Source: Vulcanimicrobiota bacterium
GTDB taxonomy: Bacteria; Vulcanimicrobiota; Vulcanimicrobiia; Vulcanimicrobiales; Vulcanimicrobiaceae
Direction of reading: 5' to 3'
NCBI GenBank assembly: GCA_019235995.1
Contig: JAFAJV010000108.1
Coordinates: 124,001 to 188,000 of the forward strand
Length of the DNA stretch: 64,000 bases
This document shows, piece by piece, positions 3,944-46,691 of the stretch. The number at the start of each line of letters is the position of its first letter. Position 1 is the first letter of the stretch. The position numbers were made by a program, and so were the translations under genes. The notes below the pieces were generated by a model that was not told the origin of the DNA, ran no database searches, and saw only the letters and a program-made list of their open reading frames with translations.

Positions 3944-5671
3944 GTGCTTTCCAACACCGAAATCGCGAAAAAGCTGCTCGAAATCCGGACGCTGATGGAG
4001 ATGGCGGGAGAGTCGTTTTACAAGTACATGGCGTACGAAAAGGCCGCCGCCTCCGTCGAAAACGCCCCGCCTCTCCGGGACCTCGTCGCCGCGGGCGAGC
4101 ACCTTAAGCTTCCCGGGGTCGGGAAGTCGATCGGCGCCGCGATCGAGCAGCTCGTGACGTCGGGAGGCGCGGAGCAGCTCGATCTCCTCTATCAACGCTT
4201 TCCGCCGTCGCTGATCGAGGTGCTCGGCGTGAGCGGCATCGGTACGAAGACGGCGGCGATGCTCTTCACGGAGTACGGCATCGCCTCGCTCGCGGATCTC
4301 GAAGCGGCGATCGCGGCCGGCACGCTGACGAGCGTGCCGCGGCTCGGAAGCAAGACGATAGAGAATTGGAAGCGCGGGATCCTCGCGTACAAGGGGCGGC
4401 AGCGGCGCACGCCCCTGCCGCAGGCGCTGGCGATCGCGCGCCAGGTCGTCGCGCATCTCCAGGCGGGCCCACCGCTCGAGCGCCTCGCCTTTGCCGGCAG
4501 CCTCCGCCGCGCCGAAGTAACCGTCGGCGATATCGACATCGTCTGCACGTCGCAGCACGCCGCCGACGTCATCGGGCATTTCGCTCAGTGGCCGCGTGCA
4601 GAGGCGGTGCTCGCGGAGGGTCCGACAAAGGCCAGCATATGGCTCTCAGGCGGCCTGCAGATCGATCTGCGCGTCCTCCCCGACCATCTCTACGGAAACC
4701 TGCTGCAGCATTTCACCGGCTCGCGCGAGCACAACATCAAGTTGCGCGAGTACGCCGTGCGCAGGAACCTGCGCGTGAGTGAAAACGGCATATTGAACCT
4801 CGAGAACGGCGAGGTGATCACGTGTACCGACGAAGAGGGCGTCTATGCGGCGCTGGGCATGCAGTTCATTCCGCCGGAGCTGCGCAGCGGCTTGGACGAG
4901 ATCGAATTGGCTCGCGCGCGGACCCTGCCGGTGCTGATCCAGTCGGCCGACCTGCGCGGCGATTTTCACATGCACACGACGTGGAGTGACGGCGACGACA
5001 CGCTGGAAGCGATGACCGCCGCCGCGGCGGCGCGCGGCTACGAGTATCATGCGATCAGCGATCACTCGCGGGGGCGCGCGCGGCGCTTCGGTATGGGTGC
5101 CGACGAGCTTCGCCGCCAGCGCGAGGAGATCGCCGCCGCGAGCGCGCGCTACGGCATACGCACGCTGCAGGCGAGCGAGGTCGACATCCTGCCCGACGGT
5201 TCGCTGGATTTGGACGATGACGTTCTCGCGGAGCTTGACGTCGTCGTCGCGTCGGTGCACACTGCGACGAGCCAATCCCGCGAGCAGATGACGGAGCGCC
5301 TCATTCGGGCATGCCAGAACCGGTACGTGACGATCCTCGGACACCCGACCGGCCGCCGGTTTGATAGTTCGCGAGGTTATGAATTCGATTACGACGCGGT
5401 GTTCGCGGCCGCGGCGCGCACGGGCACGGCGCTCGAGATCGACGGCCAGGCCGCCCGCCTCGACCTCCCGGCCCCGCTCGCACGGCTCGCGAAGTCGTAC
5501 GGCGTGACGCTGGCGCTCGACAGCGACGCGCATCGCACCGGCGATCTCGCCGCCATAGAGTTCGCGGTCGGCCAGGCTCGCCGTGCCGGACTCGGCAAGG
5601 CGGACGTGTTGAACGCGCGCTCACTCGATGACGTGCTCGCGTTCGTCGCCCGCAAGCGGAACGCGGCGTGA
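3944..5671 (+). CDS. polX: DNA polymerase X with PHP exonuclease domain
   Basis: The 575-residue length is standard for bacterial PolX. An N-terminal 8-kDa-like and helix-hairpin-helix region (PGVGKS, SGIGTKTA) is followed by the pol-beta nucleotidyltransferase motif GSLRR (185-189) and GDIDIV with metal-binding Asp197 and Asp199. The C-terminal PHP domain has DFHMHTTWSDG, ISDHSRG and LDSDAHRTGD, the metal ligands of the 3'-5' exonuclease. PolX fills short gaps in base excision repair. The start is GTG 3944, which gives the expected MLSNTEIAKKL N-terminus. The next gene starts within its stop codon. Confidence 0.95.
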   Translation: MLSNTEIAKKLLEIRTLMEMAGESFYKYMAYEKAAASVENAPPLRDLVAAGEHLKLPGVGKSIGAAIEQLVTSGGAEQLDLLYQRFPPSLIEVLGVSGIGTKTAAMLFTEYGIASLADLEAAIAAGTLTSVPRLGSKTIENWKRGILAYKGRQRRTPLPQALAIARQVVAHLQAGPPLERLAFAGSLRRAEVTVGDIDIVCTSQHAADVIGHFAQWPRAEAVLAEGPTKASIWLSGGLQIDLRVLPDHLYGNLLQHFTGSREHNIKLREYAVRRNLRVSENGILNLENGEVITCTDEEGVYAALGMQFIPPELRSGLDEIELARARTLPVLIQSADLRGDFHMHTTWSDGDDTLEAMTAAAAARGYEYHAISDHSRGRARRFGMGADELRRQREEIAAASARYGIRTLQASEVDILPDGSLDLDDDVLAELDVVVASVHTATSQSREQMTERLIRACQNRYVTILGHPTGRRFDSSRGYEFDYDAVFAAAARTGTALEIDGQAARLDLPAPLARLAKSYGVTLALDSDAHRTGDLAAIEFAVGQARRAGLGKADVLNARSLDDVLAFVARKRNAA

Positions 5672-46146: not shown

Positions 46147-46293
46147 ATGAATCGCTGGTTCGTCGGCATTTTTCTCGTTGGAGCGATCGCAGCCGGTGCA
46201 ACGTCGCTCGCAGGCGCCACCGCACAACCCGCGCCAACCATGTCGCCGATGGCGTCCGCATCGCCGACGCCGATGTCGACGATGCGACCCTAA
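46147..46293 (+). CDS. Small secreted protein, 48 residues
   Basis: A strong AAGGAGG site lies 11-17 bases upstream of ATG 46147. The product begins MNRWFVGIFLVGAIAAGA, a clear signal peptide or membrane anchor with likely cleavage near SLAGATA. The mature part is a short Pro/Ser/Thr/Met-rich tail (PAPTMSPMASASPTPMSTM) without recognisable fold. Repeated Met-Ser-Pro is reminiscent of disordered metal-binding or linker peptides, but that is speculation. Confidence 0.6.
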   Translation: MNRWFVGIFLVGAIAAGATSLAGATAQPAPTMSPMASASPTPMSTMRP

Positions 46294-46380
46294 CCGCGCG
46301 TCATACCCTGCGATCGTGTCCATAAACTGTGGGTAACCGAAATTTCTTGTGGAGCAGTTGTGGACTAGAGCGCAAACATA

Positions 46381-46409
46381 TTGCACGCCGATTGTCGCTT
46401 TGGTAGCAT
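46381..46409 (+). promoter_or_regulatory. Candidate promoter for the structured leader
   Basis: TTGCAC (46381-46386), a 17-base spacer and TAGCAT (46404-46409) match the spacing of a sigma-70 promoter, with 3 of 6 and 4 of 6 matches. Transcription from here would begin at the first hairpin (46414). Tentative. Confidence 0.35.
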
Positions 46410-46585
46410 GCATACACTTCGCCCAATGACGAAGTGCGGACCGTATCGAACCGCGATCGACAGCACGTAGACGATCCGTTGCGTTTCACGCGACAAATCC
46501 GAGTGTGGCCGATCCAAAACCGAAGCGACACGTCGGTGGGAAGCCGGAGACGGCTTCAAACAGGCGAGAATGCCCGGGATACAGC

Positions 46586-46614
46586 AAAGCCCGCAGCGTT
46601 ACGCCGCGGGCTTT
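46586..46614 (+). terminator. Terminator-like hairpin
   Basis: AAAGCCCGC (46586-46594) pairs perfectly with GCGGGCTTT (46606-46614) around an 11-base loop. The stem itself ends in TTT, but no longer T-run follows. It lies 77 bases before the transporter start, so it could attenuate that gene or end a small RNA. The upstream GCCCG at 46572-46576 could pair with the 3' arm as an alternative. Confidence 0.5.
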
Positions 46615-46691
46615 GTACTTCGCTCGGGCGGCACACCCGCTCGCTCGAGGCCCTGTAAAGGCCACGAACGGTGTAGCGCAAAGAAGTGCCG

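Follow-up and report, generated by a model that had tools for sequence, protein, structure and literature searches.

A predicted pseudoknotted small RNA gene in Vulcanimicrobiaceae with a DnaA-box-like promoter array shared with minC

We analyzed a 64,000-nt stretch of DNA (the window) from a Vulcanimicrobiota bacterium of the family Vulcanimicrobiaceae (GenBank assembly GCA_019235995.1, contig JAFAJV010000108.1, positions 124,001 to 188,000 of the forward strand), focusing on the segment at 46294-46691 that lies ahead of an OPT-family transporter gene. Judged from its sequence, this segment most likely holds a small-RNA gene of its own, one found in soil bacteria, rather than a control region of the transporter. 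The predicted structured RNA, termed paralog A below, would span 46415-46618 on the forward strand, as do all window features described here (≈204 nt, both ends being placed from the promoter and terminator). Taking all parts together, we consider it reasonably probable that the segment encodes, as an independent gene, a pseudoknotted small RNA that acts in trans, with an upstream array of sites that is bound by DnaA and shared with the cell division gene minC.

The RNA recurs in many relatives of the window genome. A blastn search with 46310-46620 against 99 genomes of the same family gave matches in 29, of which 28 were kept after removal of a 48-nt match without a promoter (L058 in genome G029); once oriented, these 28 copies form an alignment that takes in the boxes ahead of the promoter and extends through the terminator. 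The 5'-end motif matches 12 stretches in a GTDB-species collection from which near relatives of the window genome may be absent, all with titles naming Candidatus Eremiobacterota, Candidatus Eremiobacteria, or Vulcanimicrobiota. A covariance model built from 13 A copies, searched against 149 genomes of the Eremiobacterota phylum at E 0.001 or better and with antisense matches to the palindromic terminators set aside, matches 50 genomes. After exclusion of G125 (L148), G137 (terminator only), G030 (L146), and G111 (19.8 bits), 46 remain, all in the family of the window. One very diverged RNA-like gene on the reverse strand of L241 (G025) goes unseen by the model; it combines a promoter and the array seen at the other copies with a long 5' stem and a terminator, and the RNA family may therefore reach beyond the range of the model.

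Many genomes from several genera carry two copies of the RNA, paralog A (that of the window) and paralog B; in the window genome (G000) these lie at G000:C13:170410-170620 and G000:C53:3497-3705, respectively. A midpoint-rooted FastTree phylogeny of 61 copies separates A and B groups with several genera in each, and genera g1, g10, g13, g49, and g52 are present in both. By this sequence comparison, the RNA of the window would be one of two old paralogs in its bacterial family. Genome G018 has RNA copies in tandem (L123:4293-4502 and 4653-4858).

The promoter can be read directly: TTGCAC at 46381-46386 and TAGCAT at 46404-46409 are separated by 17 nt, as the initial annotation of this DNA had proposed for a sigma-70-spaced motif at 46381-46409. 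Most relatives have TANNAT as the -10 element, and a loose pattern (TTGNNN, 16-18 nt, TANNNT) abuts the RNA in 61 of 61 copies, a count made without a control. At the other end, an intrinsic-terminator-like stem formed by CAAAGCCCGC (46585-46594) and GCGGGCTTTG (46606-46615) precedes a poor U-tract; apart from a slight shift in coordinates it is the stem previously placed at 46586-46614, and its core pairs are kept in all 28 aligned A copies. On the window alone the case is weak because a consensus scanner recognized neither the promoter nor the terminator, which, like the poor U-tract, counts against the observation. Conservation of both elements across copies argues that they are real.

Between these elements lies a compact fold. 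The region 46409-46620 has a folding energy of -82.9 kcal/mol (z -3.63), which none of 200 shuffles reaches. Helix P1 (CTTCG/CGAAG, 46417-46434) can be extended in the window to 46415-46436, with CACTTCG at 46415-46421 facing CGAAGTG at 46430-46436, and then competes with P2; it corresponds to the strong stem expected near 46414-46435. P2 (TGCGG/CCGCG, 46435-46455) holds in its loop the 5' strand of a pseudoknot, GUAUC at 46443-46447, which pairs with GAUAC at 46578-46582 directly before the terminator. The P3 arm (46455-46514) comprises P3a (GATCG/CGATC), P3b (CAC/GTG), and P3c (GTTGCG/CGCGAC), read from sequences and single folds and standing outside the A covariation count. P3c, at 46478-46483 and 46489-46494, is the hairpin that had been predicted at 46472-46482, so that the stem itself exists while those coordinates were only approximate. 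P4 (46531-46566) has CGTC/GGCG and GT/AC pairings below a 7-bp hairpin with a GAGA loop, in which the GNRA-loop stem anticipated at 46540-46557 is plainly legible as GAAGCCG-GAGA-CGGCTTC.

Compensatory changes support this fold in both groups of copies. RNAalifold on a MAFFT alignment of the 28 A copies yields 34 pairs, 13 of which are changed on both sides; with the pseudoknot included, 95.2% of the alignment cells are paired and 55 cells are changed on both sides, versus a shuffle value of 16.8 (none of 500 shuffles attains 55) and a maximum of 17 with the partner strand slid. Such changes affect six of the seven pairs of the P4 hairpin, three of six in its outer part, and three of the five pseudoknot pairs (77.6% of cells paired), whereas P1 shows little covariation because it is nearly invariant. 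In a second, separate alignment of 26 copies, most of which belong to the B group, 95.8% of cells are paired and 82 show double changes, versus 18.8 in shuffles and at most 30 with the partner slid. In this set, the P2-equivalent helix has double changes at two of four pairs, the P3a equivalent covaries, and 94.7% of the pseudoknot cells are paired, although only one of its six pairs shows double changes. The shuffles ignore relatedness, and the same alignments had served to derive the structures; we therefore place weight on the number of double changes and on the slid controls. The stems are thus conserved in relatives, the opposite of the outcome that the initial annotation had named as refuting its reading. 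A protein-coding reading was rejected, the longest internal open reading frame (ORF) ranging from 0 to 55 amino acids over the 61 copies with no common length. With promoter, terminator, covarying structure, and conservation, the segment has the features of a small structured RNA gene whose transcript is predicted; of the options raised in the initial annotation, a small RNA of about 200 nt is the one that holds, given also copies at several unrelated loci.

Upstream of the -35 element, the copies share an array that we describe as TGTGNNTAA N7-14 TTGTGNA N4-6 TGTG, with gaps typically of ≈10 and ≈5 nt. In the window, its first box is site 1, TGTGGGTAA at 46328-46336, which has one mismatch to TGTGNATAA. 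Site 2, TGTGGAGCA at 46348-46356 (core TTGTGGA, 46347-46353), starts 20 nt after site 1 here and 21 nt after it in the B copy of the same genome, and site 3, TGTGGACTA at 46359-46367, begins 11 nt after site 2. A further site 0 (TGTCCATAA, 46317-46325), again one mismatch from TGTGNATAA, can be read just ahead of the array; its word is TGTCGATAA in 10 of 13 A copies from the same genus. The array starts 82-84 nt before the first base of the covariance model in 61 of 61 copies and in none of 507 control windows, and it is exact in 40 copies, with one substitution in 17, two in three, and three in one. Five of the 61 copies were found by means of the array, and 56 were chosen independently of it.

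The array is rare elsewhere. Ten whole genomes contain 14 matches; the window genome has exactly two, the promoters of A and B, and G025 and G060 have none. Across the 149 genomes there are 56 exact matches in 39 genomes, versus one for the reversed pattern. Assigned by position relative to model matches and by the downstream ORF, these comprise 46 at RNA genes, nine at minC, and one elsewhere in another family. All but one of the 46 have a model match, the last (G023) being unscored and nearly identical to the copy in G064. A B copy in G026, missing from the results of the phylum-wide model search, came to light through the array and was then confirmed by the model. When the spacing is fixed and as many as two mismatches are allowed, the array has 25 matches in 12 genomes (16 at RNA genes, eight at minC, and one at the diverged RNA-like gene of G025) versus none in the control. 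The nine genes assigned as minC in the exact search all carry the MinC_C domain, and if up to three substitutions are tolerated, 14 of 16 genomes have the array ahead of minC.

Box 1 of the array points to the replication initiator DnaA. The stringent DnaA-box consensus is TTATNCACA (PMC5043019); many B copies and some minC promoters have its reverse complement, TGTGNATAA, as box 1, with the free fifth base occurring as G, C, A, or T. The word TGTGGATAA is present once in each dnaA stretch of the nine genomes for which the upstream side was taken (its upstream position was shown in four), the stretch of a tenth genome, G025, beginning at dnaA and thus falling outside the count; several of these stretches also contain TGTGGACAA and TGTGGAGAA. 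A set of 54 loci (457,615 bases) contains 35 strict boxes, 29 of them within the array, and no instance of the reversed word; in the 40 loci chosen by model match the figure is 18 of 23. The 64-kb window holds no strict box, and site 1 is its single match to TGTGGATAA when one mismatch is allowed. Copy A and dnaA share a contig, ≈153 kb apart.

In the mechanism that we propose, DnaA would bind the array, and the output of the RNA would then follow the level or nucleotide state of DnaA together with minC. The RNA would act in trans and might adjust growth or division to replication, its target being a matter of conjecture. Because the RNA is compact, with conserved paired regions and a pseudoknot, a protein partner or Hfq-independent action seems to us a plausible conjecture, and protein binding or Hfq-independent pairing would be likelier than classical Hfq-assisted pairing. 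Hfq (PF17209) has no match in any of the four draft genomes from the genus of the window (G000, G010, G013, and G006) and is matched in six of six genomes from other genera. Its loss in this genus is possible, and since it goes unmatched in all four, the RNAs seem to persist without it; a trans-acting RNA of the Hfq-dependent kind would fit poorly with a host genus that lacks a matched Hfq. More tentatively, and at somewhat less than even odds in our estimation, DnaA may drive or gate a replication-initiator regulon of two Hfq-independent pseudoknotted small RNAs plus minC, the RNAs forming a new structured class and the RNA arm of a link between replication and division in Eremiobacterota. 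If DnaA does bind the array, replication timing, RNA output, and division-site selection would be wired together in a little-studied phylum, and an array nearly confined to two small-RNA genes and minC would offer a direct handle for experiments.

Several findings weigh against this proposal. That DnaA binds the array, and so would control the RNAs, is suggested by the consensus match itself, and the match is imperfect: the A copies, with TGTGRGTAA or a similar word, differ from the consensus at one base, and boxes 2 and 3 match it less well. The full array was absent upstream of dnaA in the four stretches inspected. The presence of the array at RNA promoters is partly by construction because the pattern was designed from the boxes upstream of their -35 elements, and it is the rarity of the array elsewhere and its place at minC that are informative. 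At minC itself, the array was absent in G042 and G072 even when three substitutions were allowed across the 16 genomes, and it is degenerate (two to three substitutions) in the four g1 genomes tested. The fixed-spacing search misses the B copy of the window genome, which has one extra spacer base, as well as its minC. The near-invariance of P1 is a further point on this side, as is the lack of any signal for pairing of A or B with the dnaA and minC leaders of seven genomes (z -1.83 to +1.41), in a crude test that used 2-mer block shuffles and ignored accessibility.

The main rival accepts the RNA gene and assigns the array to another regulator, either of the OmpR/PhoB type or the neighboring WYL-WCX protein, making the RNA a stress or signal small RNA; we regard this as unlikely, though deserving of serious attention. 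Response regulators of the OmpR/PhoB type bind 11-bp direct repeats, and repeats placed one or two helical turns apart, as the direct repeats of the array are, suit them. Among 38 mapped loci, an ORF of the WYL-WCX regulator group is found in 22, and the full array was not seen at dnaA in the four stretches inspected. Against another regulator stands the identity of box 1 with the DnaA consensus, free fifth base included, in many copies, as do the occurrence of the same words upstream of dnaA and the presence of the array at minC. An aromatic amino acid (HutH-like) lyase group occurs in 26 of the same 38 loci. The lyase/WYL-WCX neighborhood is the usual B locus; two A-group copies (G080 and G021) also sit there, so that locus and clade do not strictly coincide. 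Beside copy B, L110 holds the recurring WYL-WCX regulator and two proteins without a Pfam match, one of which has a motif like LHTH..DG.IHIESP...F.LGEFFD.WG.

We find it highly improbable that the RNA is a protein-sequestering RNA of a known kind, such as 6S or CsrB/RsmZ, even though it is highly structured, occurs in two copies, and persists where Hfq is unmatched, and even though CsrA is matched in nine of 10 genomes. At curated cut-offs, Rfam 15 gives no match in the 64 kb, in nine A-group loci, or in seven loci with B, tandem, or diverged copies, the database search that the initial annotation had proposed. 6S RNA (RF00013) is likewise structured and of similar length; the segment has no match to it up to E 10. 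The sole 6S-like match in the window genome lies at the separate locus G000:C13:67717-67904 (L074; 38.7 bits versus a cut-off of 46.4), and we reject 6S identity for the segment; that locus is possibly the 6S RNA of the lineage. Among the 12 genomes searched, weaker sub-threshold 6S matches occur in four others. GGA motifs average 3.73 in 56 RNAs versus 5.06 in shuffles, with a mean of 0.18 unpaired in predicted folds, which rejects the CsrB/RsmZ type. At relaxed cut-offs, the Caulobacter small RNA CrfA (RF01527) matches the window over its full length at 33 bits versus a cut-off of 38. Up to E 1, neither the nine A-group loci nor the seven loci with B, tandem, or diverged copies show a CrfA match, so the one in the window is probably fortuitous and aided by the terminator, and CrfA identity was rejected.

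Still less probable is a DNA element like the DnaA-reactivating sequences (DARS) or datA that would adjust the nucleotide state of DnaA, the transcript being secondary. Its appeal lies in the three-box core at fixed spacing, as in Escherichia coli DARS (PMC4585315). A DnaA-box DNA element alone was rejected, since the compensatory changes in paired bases speak for a functional RNA and each RNA-gene array keeps one distance from the -10 element.

Least probable of all is the cis-acting leader, an attenuator or riboswitch of the transporter gene (PF03169, 46692-48647, outside the RNA gene), which had been raised alongside the small RNA: the RNA has its own terminator before OPT, the complete unit stands at other loci, OPT genes occur without it, and no conserved antiterminator was found. 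In its favor, OPT follows the A copy by 0.2-1.3 kb in five of 13 mapped A-group loci (g1, g10, and g13) and, by coordinates, in other g1 genomes. The RNA does not keep to OPT in the way expected of a leader: the 1.5 kb in front of two same-genus OPT genes (L004 and L016) lacks a copy, and the loci differ, the B paralog sitting elsewhere and the A copies of genus g52 preceding other genes. The GCCCG at 46572, suggested to pair alternatively with the terminator arm, does exist, in the window row alone of the 28-row alignment; in the assessment for a conserved antiterminator, GCCCG was the one alternative pairing considered.

The reading of a DnaA-controlled RNA that acts in trans can be set beside known systems. 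In the GacA-RsmY/RsmZ system, one upstream element is largely confined to the promoters of a pair of small RNAs; here the boxes are different, GGA is not enriched, and the element is common to minC. EcpR1 of Sinorhizobium meliloti (PMC4414408) is a small RNA linked to replication and to control of the cell cycle; it acts on dnaA mRNA and is independent of Hfq. Our RNA would share the link to replication and the cell cycle and the independence from Hfq, and it differs in that DnaA-like sites precede its gene and that our crude test gave no dnaA pairing signal. CcnA of Caulobacter crescentus (PMC8959179) is a 182-nt cell-cycle-linked noncoding RNA with weak DnaA boxes at its gene, located in the origin and presumably activated by CtrA. 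The resemblance would lie in the cell-cycle link and the boxes, and the difference lies in the origin location, given the distance of copy A from dnaA. The cell-cycle small RNAs of these papers thus have dnaA mRNA as a target (EcpR1) or a place in the origin (CcnA), and in the RNA described here, DnaA-like sites appear to be an input. DnaA-dependent attenuation of the his leader has also been proposed (PMC10989985). Searches of the literature by title, by RNA or lineage (for one query, the best 10 of 1,359 results), and by DnaA boxes combined with small RNA or with minC found no such case.

Two further features lie near copies of the RNA. In G084, an M-box magnesium riboswitch (RF00380, 113 bits) occupies L128:7986-8151 on the reverse strand, a few kb from the RNA copy. 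In the window, a 48-codon ORF at 46147-46293 follows AAGGAGG and encodes a peptide with a hydrophobic start (MNRWFVG...) and an end rich in P, S, T, and M; the same small ORF is found between nadA and the RNA gene in several relatives from the same genus.
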